Below are positions 9,698 through 60,960 of a stretch of 64,000 bases of DNA, one piece after another; position 1 is the stretch's first letter, and every line of letters begins with the position of its first letter. The DNA lies in contig OX419759.1 in NCBI GenBank assembly GCA_948567375.1, positions 37,538,593 through 37,602,592 on the forward strand, written 5' to 3'. Both the position numbers and the translations under genes were made by a program. The notes under the pieces are model-generated. The model searched no databases, was not told the DNA's origin, and saw only the letters and a program-made list of their open reading frames with translations. This stretch comes from Lunularia cruciata (Eukaryota > Streptophyta > Marchantiopsida > Lunulariales > Lunulariaceae).

Positions 9698-10131
9698 GAT
9701 TGTTTACAACTCTTGAATCCACTCAACTCATATTAGTACTTGATCTGTCACTCTATTAATTGGGCATTGATTACAGTCAAGCCACACCCACTCTAGCTAA
9801 GAGAATCTAGGTGACACTCGCTGGCCTTTGTCTATCATAACTAGGAACTTGAAGGCTCAACATCATAGAAGTGAGCTCTTTGAAGCTGCACTTCAAAATT
9901 ATACCCCTGGACTTGAGCTAGGTCTGAAACCCTAACGGTTGTGCTAATGGCACACTTGATGGTGCAAATAGTGCAAAGTGACAATGGGCCCCATCATGAA
10001 GTCAGTACCCCGAACACAAAATCTGACCATCGGAAAGTAGTCTTTGAGAAACTGCTAAAATTACTCTAACTATTATCACTGCAACTCCAATGTCCGAGCA
10101 ATCTAGATGTGACACTACAAATTGCGTGATA
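9692..10131 (-). repeat. D1 alpha2 repeat
   Basis: On the minus strand it starts TATCACGCAATTTGTAG and ends AATCTGATTA. It is a direct repeat of alpha1 at 18751-18304 and of the D2 start at 42861-43312 (TGTCACGCCATTTGTAG...AATCTGATTA), about 440 bp. At the 5' end of D1 and D2 the alpha repeat runs straight into the leader; here it runs into beta2. Confidence 0.85.
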
Positions 10132-10231
10132 GTTGTCGTGCATATATACATCGTTACACAACATACATCGCTGTCAACATCATACACTATAGAAGCAAAA
10201 CTCACACATAGAATCTAAAGTGCTATAATCA
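10132..10231 (-). repeat. D1 beta1 repeat
   Basis: The minus strand begins TGATTATAGCACTTTAG directly after the polypurine tract and ends near GTATATATGCACGACAAC, followed by alpha2. It matches beta2 (9697-9630 plus 7745-7704). A start with TG immediately after a G-run is what a U3 start looks like. If so, U3 is beta and R-U5 is alpha. Confidence 0.75.
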
Positions 10232-10240
10232 CCCCCTTAG
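10232..10240 (-). other. Polypurine tract of D1
   Basis: The minus-strand sequence CTAAGGGGG immediately precedes the TG of beta1. It lies about 155 bp downstream of the PHD-finger stop codon, the expected place for plus-strand priming. The intervening 10241-10395 shows nothing coding. Confidence 0.6.
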
Positions 10241-10395
10241 TTGGCAATTAGGTCCCTCTAACTCTAGATAGCCATCTACTCCAAGTATATGGTATACCCT
10301 ATGATGGCAAAGATCAGAAGGCCGGGTGCTATGGAGCTCCATTGTTAGTTGCTTGTCTGCAATCTATACCATATAAAGAATGAACTAGCTATAGG

Positions 10396-11110
10396 TCAAG
10401 TACATCTAGGACATAACCACTGTCCTTGAAGAACCACCGTGAGGGGAGGAGTCATACATGCCATATGCCATCTTCTCGAATATCTATCACACACTAACAT
10501 AGTAGTAGCTCTACCAGAAGAGCCACATAACATACACCTCAAGCCTGCACATACAAGTGCCAAGCTTGGGTCCATAGTACCATCAATGTTTGGGAGGTGG
10601 CATGGCACACAATTGCATACATGAGCTTTCCAAACAACACCATCACGTCCTTCTAACACAAGGACTCTAGATGGCAAAACCTCATGCACTCTCAAGATAG
10701 TGCAACCTATCAAAACATCAAGTGTCATTGATGTTATTTGCTGTAGATATCTATAGGCTCCTAGATGAAATCAACGGATTGAGTGTTTATAACCTCCTCC
10801 TTGAATGGTAGCATAGCATAAAGTATCTCTATGCTGAGCAATCGCCAAGTTCTCAAAGGCCATTGACATCACTCTTTGAAAGATCTCTACCCATCGAGAA
10901 CATGCACTCATCCATACATCTAGGTCATCCAAGTCCTAAACTACAGTAGCATCTTGACGAATGGTTGTAGGTAAATTTGGATCTCATCCATAGAGTAGGA
11001 AGTAAAGAGAGAAGGATGCTAAGGAGGCTTGCCGGCTGAATCGATAGCCCATGGCCAACCAAGATAATTAAAGATTCCAATCTCCCAAGTGACCTCTCTA
11101 CAAACCATAA
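10396..11110 (-). pseudogene. D1 integrase C-terminus with terminal PHD finger
   Basis: After the end of the integrase core (QASLASFSLYFLLYG), the minus strand gives an integrase C-terminal barrel-like region (LGAYRYLQQ, ILRVHEVLPS, VLVLEGRDGVVWKAHV), then CHLPNIDGTMDPSLA, then a PHD-type zinc finger that ends the protein. In the open 110-codon stretch 10728-10396 the ligands are C65, C68, C80, [C83 replaced by Tyr], H88, C91, C106 and C109, which is exact C4HC3 spacing. The Cys-to-Tyr change is one G-to-A step (TGT to TAT). PHD fingers in host proteins bind histone H3 tails. By inference this one takes the targeting role that a chromodomain has in chromoviruses. Three stops lie upstream of it. 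Confidence 0.8.
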
Positions 11111-13500
11111 TTTTGCAATCCTCTCTTCACTGTCTGAAACACTCTCTCTGCTTAGCCATCTGCCTCAAGGTGATCTCAAGATGTAGTACAATGATCAATC
11201 AAAGCCTTGTTACACAAGACCTAAAACTCTCTCAAGAACTTTGTACCTTGATCAGTCAAAACCTCAGTTGGTGCACCAAAATAACTAAGAACTCAATCTA
11301 GGAACAAGTAAGCCATCCCTTCACTAGACTTGTCAAGAAGTACCACCAACTTAGTCCACTTGGAGAAGTGCTCCACCATCACCAAAACATACCAATGATG
11401 TCTCACAGTCAACGGTAAAGGTCTAGCAAAGTCCAAACTCCAACGGTAACCCAATCCCATGATAGGTAATGGGTGTAACTATGGTGTAGGAGCATTGAAT
11501 GATGCTCTAACTTGGTCACAAACCACACATTTGGCAACAGACTATTGTACCTTGGTCTGCATACCGTGCCACCAATAGTGACTCTGGAGTAAGCTATATG
11601 TATGCTTTACTCCAAAATGTCCTAGCTCCTCATGAGCATGACGGACCAACTACGGTCTCTAAGATGGAAGTGGTACTACTCACACTCTGCCATCCTCCCA
11701 TACATGCAAAAGGTATCTACCTTCCAATCTGAACCATTTGGCTCGTTGAAGAACACGGTCTCTCTCCTTGGCCCAACTGTGCCACCCATAACACTAGTGC
11801 AAAGATAATCCATCACTAAGACATCATCATGAATGTCTTGCTGAACTATACCAATATCTTCACTCCTTGGATTTGTGACCTCAATACCTCCTCCTGTATG
11901 CACTGAGAGAGATACCACCAAAGCCTTAGAAAATATACACAAAAGGCCAATGCATGCCAACTTGACACCATCTCCTCATTTGTCTCACCATGCCAACGTG
12001 CTCCGGTCTGATCCTACTGACTGGGACATGGGTTTCTACTCAACCCATCTGCATCATGGTTCACCACTCCAGGTTTGTGAACAACCATAAAATCATACTC
12101 TTGTAAAATCAGAGCCCATTGTGCAAGCTTCCCTAAAAGCTTGTCGGACTCCATCAACCACTTCAACGGTTGATGATCAATGATGAGAGTGAGTGGGTTA
12201 CCAAATAGGTAACATCAAAAATGTGCTACTACCCAAAAGGCTGCCAAGCACTCTCCCTTGTATGAACTATACTTTGCCTTTGCTAAATTTTTGGAGCGAC
12301 TAGCATAGGCCACCACAAAATCCTTCCCCTCATCATCATGGTGGGTGAGCATTGCTCCAAGCCCCAACATACTCCAATCAGTATGAACCTGAAATGGTTG
12401 TCCTTTGATCGGTCTCCTCAAAATAGGAGCAAATGTCAACCTCTCCTTGAGCTCTACAAGAGCTCTTTCTCTCTCATCTCCCCAACACCACTCCTATGTA
12501 AGCTTGGTCAACTTTGTCAAGGCCTTGGAAATGGCACTAAATCCTCTAACATAGTAGCAATAGAAGTTTTCCAACCCAAGTAATGCTCACACTTTGCTCA
12601 CATCTATAGGCTTAGGAATACATGCAATAGGCTCCACCTTGGTCTACTGAACACCAAGTCCTTCGGGGTAGATAGTGTGACCCAAATACTCAACCTGCTC
12701 ATGGAAGAACCTACACTTCCTAGGATGTAATTTGAGTCCATGAGATCTCAACCTCTCAAACACCTCCAACAACTGTCTCTCATGTTCCTCCATAATAGTG
12801 CTATAGACCAAAATGTCATCAATATAGCACCAAGCAAAATCCAATCCAACTAGGATCCTATCCATGATCCTCTGGAACTCAGCAAGAGCGTTCTTTAACC
12901 CAAATGGTAAGAATCTCCACTAATATAACACATCCTTGCTGTGAGGATCAATAGCCCAAAATGTTGTCTTGGACTTATCCTCCTCCCTGATTGGCAATTG
13001 ATGATATCCTGCTCAAAGATCCAAAGTATTGAAGACCTTTGCATGCCTAATTGCATAAAAAATCTCCTCTAATGTAGGCATAACATATTGATCAGCCTTG
13101 GTCTATTGATTGATAGGACGGTAATCTCCACACATCCGCCTATCTATGTAGTTGCCATGCATATCCTTCTTGGATGGCATCATTGTTGCTGATGTATACT
13201 CTCTATGTGAGATCTCCACCAAATCAACCTCAAAAAGGTCACTACTCTGGCTTTGAATCAATGTCCTCTTTGTATCATTATATTGATAACGATGTTGGAA
13301 AACTGGTGTATCGCTAGTCCACTCAATTCTTATACTAGGTCCCTTTAGAGCACCCAAATCCTTCATACTAAAGGCAAAACAACTCATATAGCTCCTCAAG
13401 AACCTCCAAACCCTCCGTCTTTCCTCTCCAATAAGCTTGGATCCAAGATCTAGCTCCCAAGTATCCTTTGTAATTGTTGTAGGAGTGGAAGACGTATTGA
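11111..13500 (-). pseudogene. D1 RT, RNase H and integrase core
   Basis: This is a degenerate minus-strand pol. RT pieces include MCGDYRPINQ (about 13130), CYIDDILVYS (about 12810) and LKLHPRKCRFF. RNase H has QVHTDWSMLGLGAML (about 12370) and KYSSYKGECLAAFW. The integrase finger and core lie at about 11620-11100. It aligns throughout with D2 49601-52100. There are many in-frame stops; most differences from D2 are C-to-T and G-to-A. It encodes no working enzyme. Confidence 0.85.
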
Positions 13501-14790
13501 CTAGCTGCTACACTAGGCCCTTGGGAGCAATAGTGTCATGCTCACGACCACTAGAGATCCCAACCTTTATGTGAAAAACTCCCTCCACTCTAGCTGCAAG
13601 CTCCACACGTCCTCTAACTACAGTCCAAGTGGACCAAGGGTGTAATCCAAGTAGCCCATGCTCACTTGGATGGACTCCAAGTAGACCACTCTCCCTAGTA
13701 GCTATTGGCTGTGTCCCAAGAATACCATGTCCACTCGGTCCATTGCCCCCAACATGTGCTTGAATCATCTCAATCGGCACAGGACTAACAAGTGTTTGAG
13801 TGTTGATGCCTATCAAGCGCATCCTACGTTGCTCTACCAATCCAATGCTCATAATCCAAGTCAAACAAGTTAGGTCCATACCCTGACCTAACACCTAATG
13901 CCTAGATGCCTCTTACACTGCTAGAACAATGGTAATACTAGTGCAAAAACCCATTGCCCGCTCTCTCTCATCAACATTGAGCTCCACCAACTACTATAAC
14001 TATGAGTCCCAAACAAGTCCAAGTCCTCCCTCTCAAAAAGCATGAGAACTTGAGAAACTCATGAGTGTGGGAAATGCGGCTCTAGGCTGTCCAACTAGGT
14101 TCACCACTGCCATAGGTGACCTATCAGCCACTACCACTATCTGAGATTGATGCCTAACATCCAAGATATCGTTGACAAGGATGTGGTCAAGTCATTGAAT
14201 CCCATTATAAGCATGTTGTAAAACCTCTCTGAGTAAGAGATTTGTCCACCAAAGACAAAGATAATGAGCCCATGATCCTACTCTAGCTGCATCCAACAAT
14301 ATAGCATGTCCTATCCAAGAATGGACCTAATGTGTACTTACCACCACTCTGGTGCGGAATCACCCATCAAAGGAATGTTCTCCAAAAGGTAAGCTGGAGA
14401 AACGGATTGATGAACCTAGAGATGTTGTAGTATCCGTAGCATCTCCCAAAACACACCAAAACAAGGATCTTAAAGACCCAAACCTCAACTAGCACGTGTA
14501 TGTCCCTGACATGGCCCTCCAGAAATCACCAAGTGAATAGGCCCATGTCTCTCTAAATCATGCACCCCCCGTAAGGAAATGTCTATTGGTAGGGCCTTCT
14601 GGTAACCTTTGACTGCTGACTTTGGTAATAACTCTGGATACCAATAGGTCAAGTGTGCCACATGATGTAGAGAGACTTGCCTAGTAGTCTCATCTCTCTC
14701 TACATACAAGTACCCTATACTCGTATACCCACCTATATTACCGCAGCTAGTCCGGTGCTAATCCCACCGGACAACTCCAATAGACATATC
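13501..14790 (-). pseudogene. D1 C5-cytosine methyltransferase remnant
   Basis: Minus-strand pieces in order: motif I (GGISTGLAAV, about 14760), YVERDET (about 14700), motif IV with the catalytic proline-cysteine (ISGGPCQGHT, about 14500), motif VI (YLLENIPLMGDS, about 14360), and the C-terminal motif with LGQGMDLTCLTWIMS (about 13890). It matches D2 47521-49240 but is interrupted by stops and shifts. No LTR-C is present at the position where D2 has one, so this copy shows the empty site (tctttggtggacaaatctc on the minus strand near 14245). It serves as independent evidence that the methyltransferase belongs to the element. Confidence 0.85.
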
Positions 14791-15746
14791 CCCTGTATTG
14801 GATACTGCCAAGCAATGAGTATGGTATCCAAAGGTGTCAAAGTAATCAACTCTAGAGGCTCATCCTCACACTCATCTCCTAATGGTACGAAGGCTCCACT
14901 CCAAGCCTATTGCACCAACTAATCTGCATGCTACTGCAATGCCTCCTCTGAACTCCACAATAGAACATCCAAGGTGGATGGAACAATCCCACTTGTACTC
15001 CAAATCAGAGTGATCTCCTCTGGTACTAAAGTATCCTTTGCATGGGTGTTCCCCTCCAACAAGTCACCAAGCCAAGTAACTACACCATTGAAAGCTAAAA
15101 CTGATGTTGCCATGGTCTTGGACTGTAGTGAGCCAAGATTGCCATTACTAAAGCATACTCGTAGGCAACATACCCGTCCCTCACCAGACTACCAACTTGG
15201 TCTATAGGAGGCTGTCTCCTCCCAATAGTCAAAATTGAAACCCATGGGGCATAAAACTGCCTCCCCAACTAGCACATCATATGACTTAGCTATTGTCGCA
15301 ATAGCCTGAGCTCTCACCACCAAGCTATCAATCGGATTATCAAGCTACACCTGAACAATAAGCTTCCCATGTGTGATGTACTGTGTCGAACCACCACCTA
15401 AAGATCTCTAGATTTGAAATGGACACCTCTCCACATTGGTCTTTTGTAACTCCATATCGACAACTATAGCCTTCCCCAACATAAGGCATTGTGGACTTGA
15501 GTCTAACAAGACTCTTTGTGGTGTATAGACTTTCCCTAAAGGTCCCACCAAATGGAAAATCCCCCTTTGGTTATCCAATAGGACAACACCAAGTGTGAAC
15601 CCCGCTCTCTCAAAGGCCGGTCTAGTTGGCAACTCCTCCAGTCTAGCCGTTATTGCCTGCCATAAACCACTGGTCACTGAATGGATCCCATGCTCCTCAA
15701 CCAAGTCAGCTCTACTATCAACCACTTCTGCTCTAGGAGTAGGAAC
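14791..15746 (-). pseudogene. D1 protease region
   Basis: On the minus strand the stretch 15725-15408 reads through RVLLDSSPQCLMLGKAIVV. This corresponds to the D2 protease site LLDSGAQPLMLG with the active-site glycine changed. Upstream are GLWQAITARLEELPTRPAF and downstream ATSVLAFNGVVTWLGDLLEG, both collinear with D2 46600-47300. Several stops are present. It is an inactive aspartic protease segment. Confidence 0.75.
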
Positions 15747-16436
15747 TGTGAGCCGGCCTGTCTCTCACTCAGGATGAACCTCTGATGGCTATTATGGTAG
15801 CGCACCATGGACTAAGAAGGCAAGGAACCCCAACTCCATCATACTCCTCCAAGGCTAACACTCCAAGACTCAAGACATTGCTCACTAGAGAACTCAATGA
15901 GAGAGAGATAGTTGCAAATGAAAGGATGATAAGTACCTCCTCACCCCTTGTTTATATACTTGTGAAATAGTTACGTACCAAAGTTACTAATTACCATAGT
16001 AACTCAAGTAACTAGACTAAAAGTCAAGTAAAGTCAAAAAGTAGAAAGGAATAACCATTCACATGGGCATATTCCCCTAAGCATGTGGTCTTATCTTGAC
16101 CCAACCACTAAGTCAAGGATTCCTTCACATGGGCTATCCTTGGACTAAAGAAGAATCCAAAACAAAAAGGCTTGCGGGCCCAAGAGTTCTCAACTCTCTC
16201 CTCAAAGCCAAACACCTAGGAATAATACCAAGTCAACACACTAAAATCCAAAATAGTGGTGCTCATCTTTTCTACTTCCTCTAAAGTAAAGTCCCCTCTA
16301 TCTTAGCTATGACTAACTTTAGCTAACCATGACTAATATAGAACCATCCTTTATCTCTATAAATAATATCTCTTAAGTACTTGTAATACCAAGCTAAATA
16401 TCACAATGCCACACACATGCACAAATGGGTGTTACA
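15747..16436 (-). mobile_element. Solo LTR-C (690 bp) inside D1
   Basis: On the minus strand it starts TGTAACACCC at 16436 and ends GGCTCACA at 15747. The flanks are GTTTT (upstream) and GTTCC (downstream), a decayed 5-bp duplication. D2 has the intact target (GGTGCAGTTCCTACTACT, near 46565), so the site is polymorphic between copies. The short open stretches inside (about 60 codons each) recur in every LTR-C and have no recognisable domain. Confidence 0.9.
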
Positions 16437-17900
16437 AAAACTGCATCATCCAAACTCTCACAAAGCATGGCAACCAATTGGAACACTGGGGTTGGGTCAA
16501 CTCCCAATGTAAACATGTCATTGGCTGAAAACAAAGGGTACAACATAATCAGCTGAGCCACCCCCAACATTGTGCTAGACTCAGTCTGTGTAGTAGTAGG
16601 TAGTCTATCATGCACTCCATCACCACCTACCACACCTGCATTGGGATGTCCAGGAACCATGGATGTTGTCTGCAATGCCTCATATAGCATGAAAGACTGG
16701 GGAAGTCTGACCTATCTCCCAACCTCTCCTCTTTGTGGGTCCAACTCCATTGATGCTCCTCTAGGCTCTGGAGCATGTAATGCACTCCTAGTCATTGTTG
16801 CAGATGCATCAACCTGAGCTGCTCCGCACATGAAGTCCAAAGCATCTCTATCACTAGCATATGAGGTGGAAGCCTCAACACCCAAATCTGATCTCCTTTG
16901 AGCAATTGCCATACTAGCCAATCTCTGCTCCAATTGCTCAATCCAAGTAGCCATAGTTGTATCAAAATTAAGGGCAAGTACTACACCTCTACTAGGTGTA
17001 GATCCTCTACCACCACCTCTACCACCTTGTCCTCCATGAGCTAGAGCTTCTACTACTTGCCATAGCAGCCCTACCACTCCGTAACTTTGGGTGTAGGTCC
17101 AAGAATTGGTCACTAGTGTGACCAAATCTATGGCAATGCTCACATTGCCTCTATGCTGACTATGATGCACCAGAGGTATGAAGTTTGTTGCCTTGAGTAC
17201 ACTCTCTCCTATGATGAGGTCCACCACAAGTCAAACAAGCAACACCACTACTCACTGGCTGTTGCTGACCCAAAAATGAAGGTAAGGGTCTAACTCCACT
17301 AGACCCTCCACTTGCTCCATAGGATCTAGGCTATCCACTCTGTCCTCAAAAACCAACTGGGCATAGTGCACTCTTCTACACTCTAGAAGAAGTCTCCCTA
17401 CTAAATCTAGATGTCACCACCCTCTCCTCCACCATGTTGAGCTCAATAGGCAAAGTAGCATGTAACAACGTAACATCATGAACTCTACGTTGCAACTCTT
17501 TGTCCAATATCCCATACCAAAACTAGACTGCTTGAGTCTCAGTAACTCCCTGAGTGAAACTAATCAGCCGCCTCATGCAAGTGTATGCCTCATGTAGGCT
17601 CTCTTTAGCCTTCCATTGGAACTCTTGCAAGCCTCTTCCATTGGAACTCTTACAAGCTCCTTAGCTTGTTAGTCTGCACTCCCTCGTAGTTCTACCTCAA
17701 ACATTGGAAGAACTCCACAATGAGGTTAAACCCCAATACCACACCACCTCCTGCAACGGTACCTCCACTTGTGGTAGCACTATCTCCAACTAGTGCACTT
17801 CCACTAGCTCCACCAACACTACTCAAGCTAGAACTTGTAGGTATAGCCAATCTACTCATGGCCACCAAACCTTGAAGTGATCGAGAGATAGTTCCCTAAA
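16437..17900 (-). pseudogene. D1 Gag with CCHC knuckles
   Basis: The minus strand is collinear with D2 45100-46560. It holds the second half of the Gag capsid-like region, the two zinc knuckles (a CGGPHHRREC type and CEHCHRFGH type, about 17230-17090), and a Gly/Arg-rich stretch. Gag packages the RNA; the knuckles bind it. Stops and shifts break the frame. The N-terminal half of Gag present in D2 (44640-45100) is deleted: sequence jumps from the leader directly to the SLQGLVAMS part at about 17890. Confidence 0.7.
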
Positions 17901-18303
17901 TTTGACTGACCGCTAAATCCTCTACTAACTCTTCAATTGGGCCAAATTGAAAACATGGGTTTCTCCAAATCACAAATTCACAAGAATAGCTTCCCAACTC
18001 CACCTTCAATTTTACTTTTTGAGCACAACTTGCAACAAATTGGTCCTACATTCACCTCTTGAGCTCAAAATCACAACCATTGCTCTACAATTGCTTCTTC
18101 TTTGCTAAAAATTTAGCCAACGCTTCTGCACATTGTCCGCCTTACTACCAAATCTGCATCAAGCAATGAGCTTCTGCACACCAAGGAAAAATTGAATTTA
18201 AATCAAGCTACTAATGATCCATCAAGCTTGGAGATACCATCAACACTCAAAGTTACTGCACCCAATTCCCCCCTGCCTTCACTTCTTTGATGTAATCGGA
18301 TTG
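17901..18303 (-). other. D1 leader
   Basis: This is sequence between alpha1 and gag, matching D2 43313-43700. It starts GAAGTGAAGGCAGGGG after ATTACATCA and contains TGATGGTATCTCCAAGC about 50 bp in (D2: TTGGTAGTATCTCCAAGC), a possible primer-binding site whose tRNA I cannot assign. No coding content was seen. Confidence 0.5.
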
Positions 18304-18751
18304 TTTACGACTCTCAAATCCACTCAACTTAGATCAATACTTGATCTATCACTCTATAAATTGCCAACAACTGGGCACTGATTATAGCCAAGCCACACCC
18401 ACTCTAGCTAAGAGAATCCAAGTGATGCTTGCTGGCCTCTGTCCACCATCGCCAGGAACTCAAAGGCTCAACATCAAAGAAGTGAGCTCTTTGGAGCTAC
18501 ACTTCAAAAGTATATCCCTGGACTTGAGCTAGGTCTGAAACCCTAACGGTCATGCTGACGGCACACTCAACAATGCAAAAAATGAAAAGTGACGGTAGGC
18601 CCTATCATGAACTCAATACCTTGAACATGAAATCTGACCGTCGGAAAGTAGTCTTTGAGAAACTGCTGAAATAACTCTAATTACTATCACTACAACTCTA
18701 GTGTCCGAGCAATCTAGATGCAACACTATAAATGGCATGACAATGTCAATA
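18304..18751 (-). repeat. D1 alpha1 repeat (5' terminal)
   Basis: On the minus strand it starts TGTCATGCCATTTATAG and ends AATCCGATTACATCA, then the leader. It starts at the same base as the independent D2 copy at 42861. It lacks the beta segment that follows alpha2 at the other end of D1. Confidence 0.85.
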
Positions 18752-32097: not shown

Positions 32098-32101
32098 AAA
32101 A

Positions 32102-42337: not shown

Positions 42338-42860
42338 TGTGTGTATATACATCACTACACAATAAACATCACTGTCAACATCACACATTATAGAAGCACA
42401 ACTCATACATAAATCATACATGGACTTTAAAGTGCCACAATAATTAGTTTGTTCACACAACTCGAATAACACTCAATTAGATAAGTACTTGATTTGTCAC
42501 TCAATAATCTGCCAAAAATTGGGCATTGATTACAATCAAGCCACACCCACTCTAGCTAAGAGAATCCAAGTGATGCTCATTGGCCTCTATTCCCATAGCC
42601 AGGAACTCAAAAGCTCAACATCAAAGAAGTGAGCTCTCTAGAGCTACACTTTGAAAGTATACCCCCTGGTCTCAAATCATAATAGGCTCATTGACGGCAC
42701 ACCAAATACTGCAAATGTTGCAATTGACAATGGGCCCCACCATGTAGTCAATACTCTAAATGCAAAACCTGACCGTCAACAAGTAGTCAATGAGTAACTA
42801 CCAAAATACTCTAACTACCAACACTATTACTCCAAATCCTGAGCAATCTAAGCGCAATGT
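42338..42860 (-). repeat. D terminal repeat, alpha-beta unit (D3)
   Basis: On the minus strand, alpha (42860-42444, ...CAAACTAATTA) is followed by beta (TTGTGGCACTTTAAAG ... GTATATACACACA) and then family P4 integrase sequence. The beta end matches that of D1 at 7704, which makes this a genuine element end. The first 18 or so bases of alpha are missing, where the plus-oriented D2 begins. Confidence 0.8.
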
Positions 42861-43312
42861 GTCACGCCATTTGTAGTTCCGCATCTAGATGCTCGGACAC
42901 TAGAGTTCCAGTGATGGTAGTTAGAGTTATTCTAGCTGTTTCTCAGGGACTACTTTCCGACGGTTAGATTTCGTGTTTGGGGTACTGACTTCACGGTGGG
43001 GCCCACCGTCACTTTGCACCGTTTGCACCGTCGAGTGTGCCGTCAGCGGGACCGTTAGGGTTTCAGGGCTAGCTCGAGTCCAAGGGGTATAGTTTCGAAG
43101 TGAGCTCCAGAGAGCTCACTTCTCTGATGTTGAGCCTTTGAGTTCCTGGCTATGGTGGACAGAGGCCGGCGAGCGTCACCTGGATTCTCTATGCTTGAGT
43201 GGGTGTGGCTTGACTGTAATCAGTGCCCAGTTGTTGGCAGTTTATAGAGTGACAGATCAAGTACTGATCCGAGTTGAGTTGAGTTGAAAGTGTTAAGCAA
43301 TCTGATTACATC
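42861..43312 (+). repeat. D2 alpha1 repeat
   Basis: It starts TGTCACGCCATTTGTAG and ends AATCTGATTACATCA. It begins at the same base as D1 alpha1, though the flanks differ (family D minus copy here, family P Gag there), so this is the true 5' end. It is followed directly by the leader, with no beta segment. Confidence 0.85.
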
Positions 43313-44588: not shown

Positions 44589-46700
44589 TTGCGGTTGCAG
44601 TTGGTGGTTCGGGTTTGCTGTTGCAGTTACGTGGTCACGACGGAGTTCTTTGGAGATTCCAGAGGAGTTAGCCCTGCAGTACGTAGTGGGTTTACTCGGA
44701 GTGGTGCTCGGTATCAGCCTGTATCTCAGGTCCCAGTGAGGGAGGAGATTGACTCTGAGTTGGAGTTTGACACAGGAGCTGATTCAGTTGAGAGTGCACT
44801 TGGTGTGTCCGCACCGTTGTTGTGGGACATGGACGAGATTTATGGGGCCTCCAAAGGCCCTAGGCGTTACTCTGGTACAGTGGGTACTATTGAGTTGGAT
44901 GATTTCATCCAGGAGTTCGATAGTTGGTGTGATCTGCAGCAGATGCGGAACCCGACTTTGTTCACACCCTTCATGGCATGGAAGGGGTTGTTTCAGCACT
45001 TGGAGGGTCCACCGATGGACGACTACCATGAGTTCAGGAGAGCTCATTTGGAGGAGATTGAGTTATGGAGACAGTATTGGTCTCCACACTATGTCTCCAT
45101 CACTTCAGGTTTGGTGGCCAGGAGTAGGTCGGTTGTACCTACGAGTTCTAGCTCGAGTAGTGTTGGTGGAGCTTATGGAGGTGCACTAGTTGGAGATAGT
45201 GCTACTACGAGTGGAGGTACCGCTGTAGGAGGTGGTGTGGTACCGGGGTTTAACCCCATGGTGGAGTTCTTCCTATGTTTGAGGTAGAATTACCAGGGAG
45301 TGCGGACTGACAAGTTGAGGAGCTTGCAGGAGTTCCAGCGGAAGGCTGGAGAGAGCCTACGCGAGGCATACACTCGCATGAGGCGGCTGATCAGTTTCAC
45401 TCAGGGAGTTACTGAGGCCCAGGCAGTCCAGTTTTGGTATGGGATACTGGACAGGGAGTTGCGACATAGAGTTCGTGATGCTACGTTGTTGCAGGCTACT
45501 TCGCCCACTTTGGCAGTAGTCTTTGGTTTGGCTGAGCGTATTGAGCTCAACATGGTGGAGGAGAGAGTGGTGACAGCTGGATTTGGTAGAGAGACCTCAT
45601 CCACGGTTGTGACTTCTTCTAGAGTGCAGCAGAGTGCACCACGCCCAGTTGGTTTTTGAGGATAGGGTGGACAGCCCAGATCCTATGGAGTGAGTGGAGG
45701 GCCTAGTGGAGTTAGACCCTTACCCTCATTTTCGGGTCAGCAGTAGCCAGTGAGTGGTGGTGTTGCTTGTTGGACTTGTGGTGGACCTCACCATAGGAGA
45801 GAGTGTACTCAAGGCAGTGGACCTGATACCTCTGGTGCATCACAACCAGCACAGAGGCAGTGTGAGCATTGCCACAGATTTGGTCACACTAGTGACCGGT
45901 GTTTTGACCTACACCCGGAGTTACGGAGTGGTAGGGCTGCTATGGCAGGTAGTAGAGGAGCTCCAGTTCATGGAGGACGAGGTGGTAGAGGTGGTGGTAG
46001 AGGATCTACACCTAGTAGGGGTGCAGTACCTGCCCTTACTTCTGACACAGCTATGGCTACTTGGATTGAGCAGTTGGAGCAGAGATTGGCTAGTATGGCT
46101 ATTGCTCATAGGAGATCAGATTCAGGTGCTGAGGCTTCCACCTCATATGCTGGTGATAGAGATGCTTTGGACTTCATGTGCGGAGCAGCACAGGTGGATG
46201 CATCTGCAGCAGTGACTAGGAGTGCAGTACGTGCTCCAGAGCCTAGAGGAGCATCAGTGGAGTTGGACCCACAGAGAGGAGAGGTTGGGAGACAGGTCAG
46301 ACTTCCCCAGTCTTTCACGCTATCTGAGGCATTGCAGACGACATCCATGGTTCCTAGACATCCCAGTGCAGGTGTGGTAGGTGGTGATGGAGTACCTGCT
46401 AGTCAGCCACCTACTACTACACAGACTAAGTCTAGCATGATGTTGGGGGCGGCTCAGCTGATTATGCGGCATCCTTTATTTTCAGCCAGTGACATGTTTA
46501 CATTGGGAGTTGACCCAGCCCCAGTGTTCCGGTTGGCTGCCACGTTGTGTGAGAGTAGGGATGGTGCAGTTCCTACTACTAGAGCAGAGGTGGTTGGTAG
46601 TGGAGCTGACTTGGTTGAGGAGCATGGGATCCGTTCAGCGACCAGTGGTTTATGGCAGGCAACAGCGGCTAGACTGGAGGAGTTGCCAGCTAGACCGGCC
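44589..46700 (+). pseudogene. D2 Gag with two CCHC zinc knuckles
   Basis: The frame is open before the first ATG (44829); conserved PVREEIDSELEFDTGADSVE is shared with D4, so the true start is upstream and unresolved. Capsid-like part: ELDDFIQEFDSWCDLQQM, FMAWKGLFQHLEGPPMDDYH, QEFQRKAGESLREAYTRMRR, QFWYGILDRELRHRV. Knuckles at about 45770-45905: CWTCGGPHHRREC and CEHCHRFGHTSDRC. These are followed by a Gly/Arg-rich RGGRGGGRG stretch and a long Ala/Ser-rich region. Gag coats the RNA genome. Stops: 45285 (TAG; CAG in D4), 45657 (TGA), 45663 (TAG) and 45747 (TAG). Confidence 0.85.
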
Positions 46701-47520
46701 TTTGAGAGAGCGCGGTTTACACCTGGTGTTGTCCTATTGGATAATCAGAGGGGGATCTTTCGTTTGGTAGGACCTTCAGGGAAGGTCTATACACCACAGA
46801 GAGTCTTGTTAGACTCTGGTGCGCAGCCTCTTATGTTGGGGAAGGCTGCAGTTGTTGGTCTGGAGTTACGGAAGACCGATGTGGAGAGGTGTCCATTTCA
46901 GATCCAGACATCTCTTGGTGGTGGTTCGACACAGTACATCACACGTAGAGAGCTTGTTGTCCAGGTTCAGCCTGGTCATCCGATTGATAGCTCGGTGGTG
47001 AGAGCTCAGGCTATTGCGACGATAGCTGAGTCCTATGATGTGCTAGTTGGGGGAGCAGTGTTATACCCTATGGGTTTCAGTATTGACTATTGGGAGGAGA
47101 CAGCCTCTTATAGACCTGGTTGGCAGTTTGGTAAGGGACGGGTATGTCGCCTACCAGTACGCTTTAGTAGTGGCAGTCTTGGCTCACTACAGTTCGAGAC
47201 CATGGCAGCATCAGTTTTGGCTTTCAGCGGTGCAGTTACTTGGCCTGGTGACTTGTTGGAGGGGAATGCCCATGCAGAGGATACTCCAGTACCAGAGGAG
47301 ATCACTCGGCTATGGAGTACGAGTGGGATTGTTCCATCCACCTTGGATGTTCCATTGTGGAGTTCAGAGGAGGCATTGCAGCAGCATGCAGATCAGTTGG
47401 TGCAGCAGGCTTGGAGTGGAGCCTTCGTACCATCAGGGGATGAGTGTGAGGATGAGCCTCCAGAGGCGATTGCTTTGACACCTCTGGATACCACACTCAT
47501 TGCTTGGCAGTATCCAGTAG
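46701..47520 (+). CDS. D2 aspartic protease region
   Basis: It lies inside the uninterrupted 629-codon stretch 45750-47636. The active-site motif LLDSGAQPLMLGKAAVVGLE lies at about 46806, with FRLVGPSGKVYTPQRV just before. Downstream are VQPGHPIDSSVVRAQAI and LVGGAVLYPMGFSIDYWEE, resembling the second half of a pepsin-like retroviral protease (hydrophobic then G-x-x-L/V). It would release the polyprotein domains, including the methyltransferase that follows without a break. The catalytic Asp-Ser-Gly is intact. Confidence 0.8.
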
Positions 47521-48073
47521 AGGGGATATGTCTATTAGAGTTGTTTGGTGGGATCAGCACCGGACTAGCTGCGGTGTTACAGGCGGGTATCCGAGTACAG
47601 AGGTACTTGTATGTAGAGAGAGATGAGACTGCTAGGTGAGTCTCTCTACATCATGTGGCACACTTGGCCTATCGGTATCCGGAGTTATTACCGATGTCAG
47701 CAGTCAGAGGTTACCAGAAGGCCTTACCAGGAGACATTTCCTTATTGGGGGCGCATGACCTAGAGAGACATGGGCCTATTCACTTGGTGATTTCTGGATG
47801 GCCATGTCAGGGACATACACGTGCGGGCCGCGGTTTGGGTCTTCAGGATCCTCGTTCTGGTGTGTTTTGGGAGATGTTACGAATACTACGACATCTCCAG
47901 GTTCATCAGTTTGTTTCTCCAGCTTACCTTTTGGAGAACGTTCCATTGATGGGTGATTCTCGCACTAGAGTGGTGGCGAGTACACATCAGGTCCATTCTT
48001 GGATGGGACCTGCTGTATTGTTAGATGCAGCCAGAGTGGGATCACGGGCTCATCGTCTTCGTCTTTGGTGGAC

Positions 48074-48752
48074 TGTAACACCCATTTGTGCATGTGTGTG
48101 GTATTGTGATATTTAGCTTGGTATTACAAGTACTTAAGAGATATTATTTATATAGAGATAAAGGATGGTTCTATATTAGTCATGGTTAGCTAAAGTTAGT
48201 CATAGCTAAGATAGATGGGACCTTACTTTAGAGGAAGTAGGAAAGATGAGCACCACTATTTTGGATTTTAGTGTGTTGACTTGGTATTATTCCTAGGTGT
48301 TTGGCTTTGGGGAAAGAGTTGAGAACTCTTGGGCCCGCAGGCCTTTTTGTTTTGGATTCTTCTTTAGTCCAAGGATAGCCCATGTGAAGGAATCCTTGCT
48401 TTAGTGGTTGGGTCAAGATAAGGGGAATATGCCCATGTGAATGGATATTCCTTTCTACTTTTTGACTTTACTTGACTTTTAGTCTAGTAACTTGAGTTAC
48501 TACGGTAATTAGTAACTTTGGTACGTAACTATTTCACAAGTATATAAACAAGGAGTGAGGAGGTACTCATCATCCTTTCATTTGCAACTATCTCTCTCTC
48601 ATTGAGTTCTCTAGTGAGCAATGTCTTGAGTCTTGGAGTGTTAGCCTTGGAGGAGTATGATGGAGTTGGGGTTCCTTGCCTTCTTAGTCCATGGTGCGCT
48701 ACCATAATAGCCATCAGAGGTTCATCCTGAGTGAGAGACAGGCCGGCTCACA
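48074..48752 (+). mobile_element. Solo LTR-C (679 bp) inside the methyltransferase
   Basis: It starts TGTAACACCC and ends GGCTCACA, with a 4-bp duplication GGAC at 48070-48073 and 48753-48756. Removing the LTR and one GGAC joins LRLWWT to NLLPREVLQRAYD in frame. D1 has the empty site near 14245. The insertion is later than the copying of D2. Confidence 0.92.
48541..48548 (+). promoter_or_regulatory. TATA box of LTR-C
   Basis: TATATAAA is preceded by TTCACAAG and followed about 25-30 bp later by TACTCATCATCCTTTCATTTG, a plausible start region. The same box is conserved in all LTR-C copies, for example 57668-57675 (plus). It marks the U3/R boundary at about three fifths of the LTR. Confidence 0.6.
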
Positions 48753-49240
48753 GGACAAACCTCTTACCCAGAGAGGTTCTACAACGTGCTTATGATGGGA
48801 TTCAACGACTGGACCACATTCTTGTTGATGATATCTTGGATGTTGGGCGTCAGTCTCAGACAGTGGTAGTGGCTGATAGGTCACCCATGGCAGTGGTGAA
48901 CCTAGTTGGACAGCCTAGAGCTGCATTTCCCACACTCATGAGTTTCCCAGGCTCTCATTCTTTTCGAGAGGGAGGACCTGGACTTGTTTGGGACTCACAG
49001 TTACAGCAGTTGGTGGAGCCCAATGCTGATGAGAGAGAGCGGGCGATGGGTTTTTGCACCGGTATTACCGTTGTTCCAGCAGTGTCAGAGGCATCCAAGC
49101 ATCAGGTGTTAGGTCAGGCTATGGACCTGAACTGTTTGACCTGGATTGTGAGCCTTGGTTTGGCAGAGCAGCGTAGGATGCGCTTGATAGGCATCACCAC
49201 TCGGACACTTGTGAGCCCTGTGCCTATCGAGACGATTCAG

Positions 49241-51240
49241 GCACATGCTGGGGGTGATGGACCAAGTGGACATGGTATTCTTGGGACACATCCAGTAGCT
49301 ACTAGGGAGAGTGGTCTACTTGGAGTCCATCCAGGTGAGCGTGGGCTACTTGGATTACACCCTTGGTCCACATGGGATGCAGCCAGAGGACGTATGGAGC
49401 TTGCAGCCAGAGTGGAGGGAGTTTTTCACACAGAGGTTGGGACCTCTAGTGGTCGGGAGCATGACACTATTGCTCCCAAGGGCCCAGTGTAGCAGCCAGT
49501 CAGTACGTCTTCCACTCCTACTACAGTTACAGAGGATACTTGGGAGCCAGATCTTGGACCCAAGCTTACTGGAGAGGAAAGACGGAGGGTTTGGAGGTTC
49601 TTGAGGAGTCACACGAGTTGTTTTGCCTTCAGTATGAAGGATTTGGGTGCTTTGAAGGGACCTGGTATACGGATTGAGCTGACTAGCGACACACCAGTTT
49701 TCCGACGTCCTTATCGATATAGTGATATGGAGAGGACATTGATTCAGAGCCGGAGTAGTGACCTTTTTGAGGCTGGTTTGGTGGAGATTTCACATGGAGA
49801 GTATGCATCAGCGACAGTGATGCCAGCCAAGAAGGATATGCATGGCAACTATACAGATAGGCGGATGTGTGGAGATTACCGTCCTATCAACCGACAGACC
49901 AGGGCTGATCGGTATGCCATGCCTACACCGGAGGAGATTTTTGATGCGATTGGGCATGCAAAGGTCTTCAGTACTTTGGATCTTCGAGCGGGATATCATC
50001 AGTTGCCGATCAGGGAGGAAGATAAGTCCAAGATAGCATTTTGGGCTATTGATCCTCACGGCAAGGATGTGTTATATCAGTGGAGATTCTTACCATTTGG
50101 GTTGAAGAATGCTCCTGCTGAGTTCCAGAGGGTCATGGATAGGATCCTAGCTGGACTGGATTTTGCTCAATGCTATATTGATGACATTTTGGTGTATAGC
50201 ACTACTGTGGAGGAGCATGAGAGACAGTTGTTGGAGGTGTTTGAGAGGTTGAGATCTCATGGACTCAAATTACATCCTGGGAAGTGTAGGTTCTTCCATG
50301 AGCAGGTTGAGTATTTGGGTCACACTATCTACCCCGGAGGACTTGGTGTTCAGCAGACCAAGGTGGAGGCTATTGCACGTATTCCTCGGCCTACGGATGT
50401 GAGCAGAGTGCGAGCATTCCTTGGGTTGGCGAACTTCTATCGCCGCTATGTTAGAGGATTTAGTGCCATTGCCAAGGCCTTGATGAAGCTGACCAAGCTT
50501 ACACAGGAGTGGTGTTGGGGAGATGAGCAGGAGAGAGCTTTTGTAGAGCTCAAGGAGAGGTTGACATCTGCTCCTATTTTGAGGAGACCGATCAGGGGAC
50601 GACCATTTCAGGTTCACACTGATTGGAGTATGTTGGGGCTTGGAGCGGTGCTCACCCAGCATGATGATGAGGAGAAGGAGTTTGTGGTGGCCTATGCTAG
50701 TCGCTCCAACAATTCAGCGGAGGCGAAGTATAGTTCATATGAGGGAGAGTGCTTGGCAGCAGTTTGGGCAGTAGCACATTTCCGATATTACCTATTTGGT
50801 AACCCCTTCACTCTCATCACTGATCATCAGCCGCTGAAGTGGTTGATGGAGTCCGACAAGCTTTCAGGGAAGCTTGCACGATGGGCTCTGATTTTACAGG
50901 AGTATGATTTCACGGTTGTTCACAGACCTGGAGTGGTGAACCGTGATGCAGATGGGTTGAGTAGAAACCCATGTCCCAGCCAGCAGGATCAGACCGGAGC
51001 ACGTTGGCATGGTGAGACAGATGAGGAGATGGTGCCAGGTTGGCATGCATCAGCCTTTCTGTGTATATTTGCAGAGACATTGGTGGTATCTCTCTCAGCG
51101 CATACAGGAGGAGTTATTGAGGTCACAGATCCAGAGAGTGAAGATATTGGTACAGTTCAGCGAGACACTCATGATGATGTCTTAGTGATGGACTATCTTC
51201 GCACTGGTGTTGTGGGTGGCACAGTTGGGGCCAAGGAGAG
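49241..51240 (+). pseudogene. D2 reverse transcriptase and RNase H
   Basis: It continues the methyltransferase frame; one TAG at 49490 (expected CAG) precedes it, then 640 open codons run from 49601 to 51520. RT: MCGDYRPINRQTRADRYAMP, FSTLDLRAGYHQLPI, FLPFGLKNAPAEFQRVMDRI, CYIDDILVYS (50171-50200; YxDD intact), LKLHPGKCRFF. RNase H: FQVHTDWSMLGLGAVLTQHD, YEGECLAAVWAVAHFRYYL, LITDHQPLKWLM, DADGLSR. All catalytic acids are present. The RT belongs to Ty3/gypsy and differs clearly from families A and C (FIDDF type) and from P. Confidence 0.9.
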
Positions 51241-52146
51241 AGAACGTGTTCTTCAGCGAGCCAGACGGTTCAGATTGGAGGGTAGACACCTTTTGCGTGT
51301 ATGGGAGGATGGTAGAGTGCGAGTAGTACCACTTCCATCACAGAGACCACAGTTGGTCCGTCATGCTCATGAGGAGCTAGGACATTTTGGAGTAAAGTGT
51401 ACATATAGCTTACTCCAGAGTCATTATTGGTGGCGCGGTATGCAGACCAAGGTACAGCAGTTTGTTGCCAGATGTGTGGTTTGTGACCGAGTTAGAGCAT
51501 CATTCAATGCTCCTACGCCATAGTTACACCCATTACCTATCATGGGATTGGGTTACCGTTGGAGTTTGGACTTCGCCGGACCTTTACCGCTGACTATGAG
51601 ACATCATCGGTATGTTTTGGTGATGGTGGAGCACTTCTCCAAGTGGATTGAGTTGGTGGCACTTCCTGACAAGTCTAGTGAAGGGACAGCTTACTCGTTC
51701 CTGGATCGAGTTCTTAGTCATTTTGGTGCACCAGCTGAGGTTTTGACTGATCAGGGTACAGAGTTCTTGAGAGAGTTTCAGGTCTTGTGTGACAAGGCTT
51801 TGATTGATCATCGTACTACATCCCGAGATCACCCTGAGGCAGATGGCTTAGCAGAGAGAGTGGTTCAGACGGTGAAGAGAGGATTGCAAAAGTATGGTTT
51901 GCAGAGAGGCCACTTGGGAGATTGGGATCTCCAATTACCTTGGTTGGCCATGGGCTATCGGTTCAGCCGGCAAGCCTCCTTAGCATCCTTCTCTCCATAC
52001 TTTCTACTCTATGGACGAGATCCAGATTTACCTGCAGCCATTCGTCGAGATGCTACTGTAGTTTTGGACTTGGATGACCCTGATGTATGGATGAGCGCAT
52101 GTTCTCAGCGGGCAGAGATCTTTTGGAGAGTGATGCATGTTCTCAC
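51241..52146 (+). pseudogene. D2 integrase, truncated
   Basis: H2C2 finger: HEELGHFGVKCTYSLLQSHY ... ARCVVCDRVRA (51365-51500). TAG at 51521. Core: YRWSLDFAGPLPLTMRHHRY (first Asp, about 51570), VLTDQGTEFLREF (second Asp, about 51750), ADGLAERVVQTVKRGLQKYG (Glu, about 51855). So the enzyme is a DDE integrase, not a tyrosine recombinase. It ends at WRVMHVLT, 52146, at the junction with element C2. The C-terminal barrel and the PHD finger known from D1 are missing. Confidence 0.9.
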
Positions 52147-57879: not shown

Positions 57880-59700
57880 GTACCTACCGTCCAATCTGAA
57901 CCATTTGGCTCATTGAAGAACATGGTCTCTCTCCTTGGCTCCAATTGTGCCACCCACAACACCAATGCAAAGATAATCCATCACTAAGACATCATCATGG
58001 ATGTCTCATTGAATTGTACCACTATCTCTACTCTCTAGATTTATGATCTCAATAACTCTTCCTATATGCACTAAGAGAGATACCACCAAAGCCTCAAAAG
58101 ATATTTAGAGAAAGGTAGATGCATGCCAACCCAACATCATCTCCTCATCTATCTCACCATGCCAACATGCTCCAGACTGATCTTGTTGGCTGGGACATGG
58201 GTTTCTACTTAAACCATCTACATCACACGTCACCACTCCAGGTCTATGAATAATTGTGAAATCATACTCTTGTAAAATTAGAGCCCATTGTGCAAGCTTC
58301 CATGAAAGCTTGTCAGACTCCATCAACCACTTCAATGGCTGATGATCAATGATGAGAGTAAATGGGTTACCAAATAAGTAACATTAGAAATGTGCTATTG
58401 CCCATAATGCTACTAAACACTCTCTCACATAAACTATAATTTTCCTCCACTAAATTGTTGGAGCAACTAGCATAGGCCACCACAAACTCTTTCTCCTCAT
58501 CATCATGCTAGGTGATCATTATTCCAAGCATCAACATACTCCATTCAGTGTGAACCTGAAATGGTCATCCTTTGATTGGTCTCCTCAAAATAGGAGCAAA
58601 TGTCAACCTCTCCTTGAGCTCTACAAAATTATCTCCTTCTCATCTCCCCAACACCACTCTTGTCTAAGCTTGATCAGCTTTATCAAGGCCTTGGCAATGG
58701 CACTAGATCCTCTAACATAGCGATGGTAGAAGTTTGACAACCCAAGGAATGTTCGCACTTGCCCACAACCAAGGCCAAGGAATACATGCAAAGCCTCCAC
58801 CTTGGTCTGTTGAACACCAAGTCCTCCAAGGTAGATAGTGTGAACCAAATACTCAACTTGCTCTTGGAAGAACTTACACTTTCCAAGATGTAATTTGAGT
58901 CCATGAGATCTCAACCTCTCAAACACCTCAAAAAACTATCTTTCATGCTCCTCCTTAATAGTTCTATAGACCAAAATGTCATCAATATAGCACTGAGGAA
59001 AATCCAATCCAATTAGGATCCTATCTATGACCCTTTGGAACTCAGCAGAAGCACTATTTAACCTAAATGGTAAAAACCTACACTGATATAACATATCCTT
59101 GCCATGAGGATCAATAGCCCAAAATGCTATCTTGGACTTATCCTCCTCCCTAATCAAGAATTGATGATATCCTACTTGAAGATCCAAATTAATTTAAGAC
59201 CTTTGCATGCCCAATTGCATCAAAGATCTCCTTTGGTGTAGGCATGGTATACCAATCAACCCTAGTCTATCAATTGATAGGATGGTTATCTCCATATATT
59301 TGCCTATTTGTGTAGTTGCCATGTATATTTTTTCTTAGTTGGCATTATTGATAAATACTCTCCATGTGAAATTTCCACCAAACCAGCCTTCAAAAGGTCT
59401 CTACTCTTGCTCTGAATTAGTGCTCTTTCCATGTTTCTATATTAATAAGGACATAAAAAAACTAGAGTATTGCTAGTTGGCTCAATCCAAATACAATTCC
59501 TTTTAGAGCACCCAAATCCTTCATACTAAAGGAAAAACAACTCATGTAGCTTCTCAAGAACCTCCAAACACATTGTCTTTTAGCTCTTGCAAGCTTGGGA
59601 GCAACATCTTGGACCCAAGCTTATAAAAAGCTTGGGTCCAAGATGTGACTCCCAAGTATCCTTTGTAACTGAAGTAGGAGTGGAAGACATACTGATTGTT
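57880..59700 (-). pseudogene. D4 RT and RNase H
   Basis: Minus strand: DLQVGYHQFLIREEDKSKIA (about 59187), QCYIDDILVYRTIKEEHER (YxDD kept, about 58985), FERLRSHGLKLHLGKCKFFQ (58926), RNase H remnants near 58560, MKWLMESDKLSWKLAQWALI (58335), DVDGLSRNPCPSQQDQ. Stops and shifts throughout; the integrase is missing. Confidence 0.8.
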
Positions 59701-60960
59701 TGCTACACTTGGCTCTTGGGAGCAATAGTATCATGCTCTCGACCACTTGAGGTCCCAACCTTTGTGTGAAAACTCCTTCCACTCTAGTTGCAAAGCTCTC
59801 TCTACATCCTCTAACTGCATCCCAAGTAGACCAAGGGTGTAATCAAATAGACCATGGACTCCAAGTAGACTCTCACTAGTAGCCATAGGATGTGTCCCAA
59901 GAACGTCCTATCCACTTGGTTCATTGTCACCAACATGTGCCTAAATTGTCTCGATAGGCATAGAGCTCACAAGTGTTTGAGTGGTGATGCCTATCAAGCA
60001 CATCCTACGGTGCTTTGCCAAGCCAAGGCTCACAATCTAGGTCAGATAGTTCAAGTCCATAGCCTAACCTAACACTTGATGGCTAGATACTTATGACATT
60101 GCTAGAATAATGGTAATACTAGTGTGAAAACCCATTGCCAACTCTCTCTCATTGACGTTGGCTTCCACCAACTATTGGAATTGTGAGTCCTAAACAAGTC
60201 CAAAGACCTCTCTCTTGAAAAGCATGAGAGCTTGGGAAACTCATGAGAGTGAGAAAAGTGGCTCGAGGCTATCCAACTAGGTTCACCATTTCCATAAGTG
60301 ACCTATCAATCACTACCACTATTTGACATCTTGGGACTAACGCCCAAGATGCCATCAATAGTGAGATGGTCTAGTCATTGAATCCCATCGTAAGCATGCT
60401 GTAGAACCTCTTTGGGTAAGAGGTTCATCCATCAAAGATGAAGATGATGAGCCATGATCCCACTCTAGCTACATCCAACAACAACAACAAGTCCTATCCA
60501 AGAATGGACTTGATGTGTACTTGCCACCACTCCGGTGAAAGCATCACCCATCAAAGGGATGTTCTCCAAAATATTATCTAGAGAAACAGAATATTGGAAG
60601 ATGTTGTAGTATCTATAATATCTCCCAAAACATGAAAAAAGAGATCCTAAAGACCCAAACCTTGACCAATGTGTGTATGTCCCTGACATTACCATCTAAA
60701 AATACCAATTGCATGGGACCATGTCTCTCCAAATCTTGTACCCCTAGCAAGGAAATGTCTACTAGTAAGATCTTTTGGTAACCTTTAATTGCTGACATTA
60801 GTAATAAATTAGGATACCAATAGGCCAAGTGTGATACATGATGTAGAGAGACTCATCTAGCAGTCTCATCTCTCTCCATATACAAGTACCCCTATACTTG
60901 TATACCCGCTTGTAATACCGTAGCTAGTCCAATGCTAATCCCACCAAACAACTCTAGTAG
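59701..60960 (-). pseudogene. D4 C5-methyltransferase remnant
   Basis: Minus strand in order: GISIGLATVLQAG (motif I, about 60940), YLYMERDETAR then TGA (same codon as D2), AYWYPNLLLMSAIKGYQK, a motif IV remnant keeping CQGHT but with the proline codon changed to a stop (about 60690), a motif VI region with ENIPLMGDA, and C-terminal motif pieces down to about 60050. It is the third copy supporting the methyltransferase as a fixed part of family D. Confidence 0.8.

Follow-up and report, generated by a model that had tools for sequence, protein, structure and literature searches.

Retrotransposons that carry a captured C5-cytosine DNA methyltransferase (DNMT) have been described in a charophyte alga and in dinoflagellates. 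According to the accessible parts of de Mendoza et al. 2018 (PMC5890265), the Gypsy element KnitGypsy-Dnmt3 of the charophyte Klebsormidium nitens has acquired an intronless DNMT3-class domain with canonical motif order, which lies in the Pol open reading frame (ORF), evolves under purifying selection and is accompanied by DIRS-like repeats around the Gypsy domains. Two elements of the dinoflagellate Symbiodinium, SymbioDIRS-Dnmt3, which employs a tyrosine recombinase and has split repeats, and SymbioLINE-Dnmt, which has no long terminal repeats (LTRs), are described there as separate captures, and one sentence on DNMT3 in streptophyte retrotransposons is found in the accessible part of PMC12344493. 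Here, we describe family D, a DNMT-bearing Ty3/gypsy family identified in a stretch of 64,000 nucleotides from the genome of Lunularia cruciata (hereafter, the window) and surveyed throughout the host genome. The precedents in dinoflagellates and charophytes, which a preliminary description of the window made from its letters had mentioned, are real.

Family D is a real, conserved and recently active retrotransposon family with the layout Gag-protease (PR)-DNMT3, a UAG codon, and reverse transcriptase (RT)-RNase H-integrase (IN)-PHD finger. It resembles KnitGypsy-Dnmt3, as far as that element is covered by the accessible text, in the Gypsy RT and accompanying domains, the intronless DNMT3-class domain with canonical motif order, the purifying selection on the DNMT and the DIRS-like repeats. 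However, the DNMT of family D is not located in a Pol ORF but ends ORF1, after Gag-PR and ahead of the conserved UAG and RT; a PHD finger terminates ORF2, and the named relatives of the family come from land plants rather than from a charophyte. With the Symbiodinium elements family D shares the captured DNMT and, in the case of the DIRS type, also the split repeats, whereas the tyrosine recombinase of the latter, the lack of LTRs in SymbioLINE-Dnmt and the dinoflagellate host of both set them apart. The main text of PMC5890265, in its accessible part, contains no mention of PHD, gag or readthrough, and a literature search of incomplete coverage yielded nothing on land-plant elements, or on PHD or UAG in DNMT-gypsy elements. 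Thus, a DNMT-gypsy element was known from K. nitens, and the land-plant relatives, the PHD finger and the UAG architecture appear to be new; where there was one algal gypsy example, a plant genome now provides hundreds of copies.

Three copies of family D were recognized in the window, D2 on the plus strand and D1 and D4 on the minus strand (Table 1); all three are broken, and nested repeats fill the window, as revealed by self-comparison. The long frame 45747-47636 of D2 encodes two CCHC knuckles, the active site of the protease and the first two methyltransferase motifs (I and II), and over 47532-49156, between a Ty3/gypsy protease (46806-46841) and RT (RVT_1, 49493-51520), motifs I to X follow in canonical order: what we take to be motifs I (47532-47588), II (47604-47627), IV with PCQ (47784-47828), VI with ENV (47922-47948), VIII (48036-48071), a IX-like motif (49016-49054) and X (49112-49156). 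A PF00145 match above the curated cut-off (E 8.9e-9) on the piece 47640-48113 bears out the preliminary description of a canonical C5 methyltransferase inside a Ty3/gypsy element; the piece 48731-49489 alone gave no Pfam match and no PDB sequence match, and a protein search with it returned 156 relatives. The domain had also been called complete, which is wrong for D2, where a TGA (47637-47639) and an LTR-C insertion accompanied by a frame shift (48074-48752) interrupt it. Of the proposed common frame with protease and RT, one part stands, namely that motifs I-VIII lie in the protease frame; because the LTR-C insert shifts the frame, the remainder lies in the RT frame, and the UAG intervenes before RT. 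The TGA is present also in D4 (60855-60853); in D1, and likewise at each of 21 sites found by motif search in fetched genomic copies, a sense codon occupies its position. The recurrence of the domain in D1 and D4 was confirmed by tblastn and ORFs, and the 150 DNMT matches scored in the host genome, together with the RT that follows the DNMT in frame in fetched copies, dispose of the suspicion that other copies might lack it.

By sequence and modelled fold, the family D methyltransferase is of the DNMT3 class. The PDB profile search gave DNMT3 as the best match (1.5e-13) and a far less significant one for the tRNA methyltransferase class (0.0089), and structure comparison of the DNMT model with Foldseek and VIA-align gave the same class; in these three comparisons, DNMT3 was closer than DNMT1, CMT, DRM, DNMT2 or bacterial enzymes. 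We rejected the possibility that the assignment arose by chance or as a Pfam artefact, because several lines (Pfam, relatives, PDB profile and fold) agree. In the model, residues 271-300, probably the target-recognition region, are poorly defined, with a predicted local distance difference test (pLDDT) score of 30-37. When compared with exons of host DNMT genes, the family D profile scored 38.5 bits with the DNMT3-like L001, 19.2 with the DRM-like L002, 12.2 with the DNMT3-like L004 and 11.5 with the CMT-like L003, values that are not strictly comparable given the unequal coverage of the exon pieces. The four host genes thus include two DNMT3-like genes, one with the DRM-type permuted order and one CMT-like gene; the permuted order is present in L002 and absent from the family D DNMT, in which motif I precedes IV and X. 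Most relatives keep the catalytic motifs: 35 of 37 have WPCQG and 42 of 51 EN(V/I)P. The DNMT tail (49157-49489), which holds the short repeats GILGTHP, GLLGVHP and GLLGLHP, is about 27 residues longer than that of 31 relatives ending 92-100 residues past motif X.

In each of the three window copies, the DNMT ends at UAG and the RT ORF follows in frame, the stop contexts being UAG CAG CCA in D2, UAG CAG CUA in D1 and UAG CAA ACA in D4. The host genome surveyed comprises 566 megabases in 74 contigs, at least eight of them longer than 60 megabases. From 20 fetched loci, 16 of which contained an ORF passing the filter (four did not), 17 DNMT ORFs were obtained, all ending at UAG followed by CAG-CCA (15) or CAG-UCA (2). 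Among 60 junctions sampled from the 150 DNMT matches listed, UAG is present in all 60 and exact CAR-YYA in 58, and the reading frame is open for 19 codons past the UAG in all 60. A 30-base pattern in which the stop codon was left free had 518 matches in the genome, 507 of them with UAG; among the 100 pattern matches listed, 98 carry UAG and the other two UAA. Ordinary decay was rejected as the origin of the UAG, the codon being ancestral and present in D1, D2, D4 and nearly all genomic copies read; because it is common to nearly all copies, the DNMT is the C-terminus of ORF1 and not part of one Gag-Pol ORF. In tobacco mosaic virus (TMV), CAR-YYA is essential for readthrough, according to the accessible part of PMC2754532. 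The UAG of family D lies in the same type I leaky context, in plants as well, and may be read through; whereas readthrough extends the replicase in TMV (PMC2754532), the family D stop is predicted to set the ratio of Gag-PR-DNMT to RT-IN. TAG-CAR-YYA is also found at approximately corresponding places in the two copies of a different repeat (26104-28807 and 35990-38709), at 28360-28368 and 38255-38263; the occurrence at 38255 does not share the frame of the listed ORF, so the motif is probably there by chance.

Family D is abundant in the host genome, with hundreds of copies. In genomic copies, ORF1 encodes 1,428-1,448 amino acids (PF00145 was found in one) and ORF2 1,037 amino acids, with RT, RNase H, integrase and the PHD finger (2.2e-10); the domain order RT-RNase H-DDE integrase is that of Ty3/gypsy, and an uninterrupted frame of at least 1,428 amino acids is present in at least 12 of the 150 matches listed. 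Substitution ratios among D1, D2 and D4 were dropped because of too few changes, and 15 genomic copies were used instead. The ratio of nonsynonymous to synonymous differences (pN/pS), summed over copy pairs that are not independent, is 0.32 for DNMT, 0.33 for RT-RNase H, 0.44 for the DNMT tail, 0.46 for PR, 0.49 for both Gag and integrase, 0.61 for the C-terminus with the PHD finger and 1.28 for the PR-DNMT linker. With transversions only, the values are 0.41 for DNMT, 0.30 for RT, 0.39-0.42 for Gag, PR and linker, and 0.65-0.73 for tail, integrase and C-terminus. The DNMT is therefore under purifying selection, near that on RT by pN/pS and somewhat weaker by transversions. The highest-ranking PDB matches of the PHD finger are CHD4, PHF12, Lid, PHF21A and KDM5B; UHRF1 ranks below them. 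Gypsy chromoviruses carry a chromodomain, a chromatin reader, at the integrase C-terminus, and family D likewise has a chromatin-reader domain at this place, although it is a PHD finger and not a chromodomain. Ginger1 DNA transposases, which are related to the Gypsy integrase, have been reported to contain PHD fingers in their C-terminal parts (PMC2836005, accessible part).

The ends of family D consist of DIRS-like split direct repeats, A1-ORFs-B1-A2-B2. The 5' end comprises A1 (about 450 bp) followed by non-B sequence in all ten fetched 5' ends that reach the A1 edge, and the 3' end reads B1-A2-B2, with B of about 108 bp, in copy L014 and in 12 of 12 other loci compared, so that identical LTRs at both ends are absent from family D. 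The tyrosine recombinase and the lack of target duplication of DIRS elements are likewise absent: family D has an rve integrase, and 4-bp target duplications are found in nine of 11 copies with both flanks (the exceptions being L012 and L021). Copies with both ends found span TGTC to GACA, a purine run lies directly 5' of B1, and the B1/A2 junction is GACA-GC-TGTC, the palindrome GACAGCTGTC, in nine of 14 junctions, with at least one change in the other five. The B1-A2 join would fit the opening, between B and A, of a circle with two repeats. In L021, a further five bases lie between A2 and B2 and are the same as the bases 3' of A1, as if the A/B junction had been regenerated together with part of the priming site. 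A tRNA scan yielded 0 genes. The identity between A1 and A2 is 96.7-99.8% in 11 copies and 89.4% in a twelfth (the other three of the 15 copies gave no value), a similarity which indicates that family D moved recently. The combination of split repeats and a DDE integrase poses a clear question on replication.

Among the 120 listed of the 156 relatives of the DNMT piece 48731-49489, the named hosts are Marchantia polymorpha, M. paleacea, Riccia sorocarpa, Calypogeia fissa, Sphagnum troendelagicum and S. jensenii, and a second search added many further Marchantia loci and S. fallax (28 proteins); with relatives in Marchantia and Sphagnum, genetics and methylomes come within reach. In 95 relatives motif X was found by a pattern of our own, and these proteins end 92-100 residues past it in 31 cases, earlier in 36, after 101-150 residues in 22 and later in six. 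Five of the six longest relatives extend to RT, P0213 as a single ORF and the rest possibly through gene-model splicing, and P0005 (Riccia) and P0099 also cross the DNMT/RT boundary. In the RT tree, for which 15 of 20 rows were kept after a motif or length filter (17 of 19 in the DNMT tree), family D groups with Calypogeia, Marchantia and one further element (100/99), P0213 groups with a second Calypogeia element (P0171), and two K. nitens RT proteins, from elements that may have no DNMT, branch apart from family D. The DNMT sequences of the K. nitens retrotransposons were not found in the protein searches for DNMT relatives, and no relatives in viral contigs were confirmed. P0213 (from a metagenome), whose motif IV reads WECQG, and P0171 form a distant second DNMT-gypsy lineage.

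The best explanation of this anatomy, to which we assign about an even chance, is that the DNMT would be produced at the level of Gag through the leaky UAG and would methylate the cDNA (complementary DNA) of the element itself. ORF1 would provide Gag with its zinc knuckles, the protease and the DNMT3-class enzyme and would end at the UAG in its leaky context, and rare readthrough would add ORF2, that is, RT, RNase H, the DDE integrase and the C-terminal PHD finger. Placed ahead of the UAG, the DNMT would be made in Gag-like amounts; the conserved UAG thus leads to the concrete hypothesis that the dose of the enzyme is tied to Gag. It would enter the particle within the Gag precursor, would then be released or used in place and, if catalytically active, would most likely methylate new double-stranded cDNA before or at integration. 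Judged by the arrangement of the domains, such self-methylation appears to be the best-supported role. As the DNMT is under constraint similar to that on RT, the element would have to gain from a mark that usually silences it. A broader scheme, in which DNMT in Gag stoichiometry before the leaky UAG and methylation of cDNA in the particle are combined with a PHD-tipped integrase acting on a two-repeat circle opened at GACA-GC-TGTC, is rather doubtful as a whole; under this scheme, the element would in effect enter the genome already marked as methylated DNA, and opening of the circle at B1/A2 would explain why split repeats accompany a gypsy integrase and target duplications of 4 bp.

A number of observations weigh against self-methylation of cDNA with a dose set at the UAG. 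By the transversion measure, the DNMT is no more constrained than Gag, PR and linker, and slightly less than RT. CARYYA by itself is common (five occurrences in the window versus 4.26 expected), so that significance attaches to the position of the motif alone; the similarity among the 60 sampled copies is such (nearly all codons are 92-100% conserved) that UAG in 60 of 60 alone reflects ancestry and not selection. What gives the context weight is where it lies, that it also occurs in the diverged copies D1 and D4, and that ORF1 of relatives ends correspondingly. RNA structure as the driver of readthrough was rejected for D1 and D2, in which no unusually stable fold was found 3' of the stop (z 0.49 and 0.65), and the D4 stretch that was folded is rearranged. 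P0064 has lost the catalytic cysteine (WPYQG), in P0213 the DNMT runs into RT without a stop, and P0099 has W at the expected stop position. In yeast, the K. nitens gypsy DNMT produced no methylation, a result regarded as inconclusive by its authors (PMC5890265, accessible part). Neither does C-to-T decay, compared with that in other repeat pairs of the window, reveal a methylation footprint specific to family D. Relative to the D2 reference, the loss amounts to 36% in CG, 29% in CHG and 5% in CHH in D1, and to 45%, 39% and 10% in D4, and the contexts rank alike in four of five further repeat pairs, the larger ones (e.g. 32%, 21% and 6%), the fifth, LTR-C, having too few sites; as the pairs differ in age, a direct comparison of their decay rates is not possible. 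Such CG and CHG loss is what methylation of these two contexts by the host leaves behind, and the family D copies were thus methylated and decayed in the manner of other repeats. There is no sign in this pattern that the DNMT protects or specially marks family D, or that the family escapes silencing, which leaves unsupported the suggestion that the element hides its DNA from the host. Finally, Sphagnum-type relatives have an apparent UAG-CAA-CCC-AUG, inferred from the frame-shifted proteins P0044 and P0088, whose AUG would also suit reinitiation.

Production of ORF2 by termination-reinitiation, splicing or an internal promoter instead of UAG readthrough is a doubtful, though serious, candidate: besides the apparent AUG six bases past the stop in the Sphagnum-type relatives, the RT ORFs of P0124, P0126 and P0127 begin with Met near the boundary, and in Candida Tca2 the gag stop is bypassed by an unexplained route (PMC2194720, accessible part). 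Family D, however, has GUC (AUC in D4) and not AUG at that site, and the retention of UAG-CAR-YYA in 58 of 60 copies and of an open frame past the stop in all 60 argues for readthrough. It is unlikely that the DNMT acts on chromatin after integration, with the PHD finger steering insertion, and methylates the insertion site or sister copies, thereby curbing either the harm that the element itself does or the competitors of the element. Such a role would be in line with the best PDB matches of the PHD finger, which are chromatin proteins (CHD4, PHF12, KDM5-type, PHF21A and UHRF1), with the CG and CHG decay of family D copies, and with a slow-down of transposition, an option discussed in the accessible part of PMC5890265. 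It is opposed by the recurrence of the CG/CHG order in other repeat pairs of the window. Moreover, CHG methylation points to the host CMT-type pathway, and the CMT-like gene L003 is present.

That the DNMT fold is retained not to methylate DNA but to bind nucleic acids, methylate RNA or serve particle structure is quite improbable. The location of the DNMT at the C-terminus of the Gag precursor and the low pLDDT of what is probably the target-recognition region are compatible with this view, and RNA methylation has been raised for the LINE type (PMC5890265, accessible part), but the catalytic motifs are kept in most relatives and DNMT3 far outscores the tRNA methyltransferase class. That the DNMT is a dead passenger, a functionless relic, is very hard to credit: although all three window copies are broken, the pN/pS of the domain is near that of RT, long frames and nearly identical terminal repeats are preserved in genomic copies, and the motifs are retained in liverwort and Sphagnum relatives. 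Self-methylation of cDNA by an enzyme made at the level of Gag thus continues to be the explanation favored here.

Table 1. Features of the family D copies in the window (the label of the protease active site is presumed)
Feature	Position	Strand	Remarks
D1, family D copy	9628..18742	-	A1 18742-18293, B1 ~10240-10134, A2 10129-9692, partial B2 9692-9628
D1 LTR-C insertion	~15744-16437		window self-comparison
D1 DNMT region	13511..14906	-	tblastn identity 79-84%, ORFs
D1 UAG-CAG-CUA, DNMT/RT boundary	13502..13510	-	
D1 PHD finger, 3' of integrase	10399..10536	-	PF00628 E 4.4e-9, above cut-off
D2 5' terminal repeat A1, ~450 bp, starts TGTC	42859..43310	+	98% to A2, 97% to A1 of genomic copy L014/L091
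D2 Gag, two CCHC zinc knuckles, ORF1	45768..45902	+	from translation; ORF without Pfam match
D2 aspartic protease active-site stretch LLDSGAQPLMLG	46806..46841	+	sequence; no Pfam match
D2 DNMT motifs I and II, in Gag-PR frame	47532..47627	+	
D2 premature TGA inside DNMT	47637..47639	+	
D2 DNMT motifs IV (PCQ), VI (ENV), VIII	47640..48073	+	PF00145; best PDB match DNMT3A 3.8e-5
LTR-C insert in D2 DNMT, foreign to family D	48074..48752	+	no internal part seen; GGAC target duplication
D2 remaining DNMT: IX-like, X, C-terminal tail	48753..49489	+	reading frame open from 48731
D2 UAG and CAGCCA, end of ORF1	49490..49498	+	type I readthrough context UAG-CAR-YYA
D2 ORF2: RT, RNase H, integrase zinc finger	49493..51523	+	RVT_1 9.2e-32, RT_RNaseH 1.2e-36, Integrase_H2C2 1.2e-17
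D2 integrase core (rve)	51524..52135	+	PF00665 1.4e-14
D4 DNMT region, broken, upper edge approximate	59706..60949	-	tblastn 51-86% over pieces, ORFs
D4 UAG-CAA-ACA, DNMT/RT boundary	59697..59705	-	one base off CARYYA

The likeness of D2 to D1 ends at 52135, where a different repeat starts. The LTR-C insert of D2 is 95-97% identical to 57181-57880, 15744-16437 and 32099-32794; at least four copies of LTR-C are thus present in the window, three of them in or beside family D copies, and a possible fifth is apparently split into 23551-23779 and 25686-26102. At 42339-43308, an inverted pair of family D repeats was observed, in which the 3' repeats of an older copy abut the 5' repeat of D2 in opposite orientation, and self-comparison of the window also revealed an array of tandem units, each about 49 bases long, at 22496-22924.
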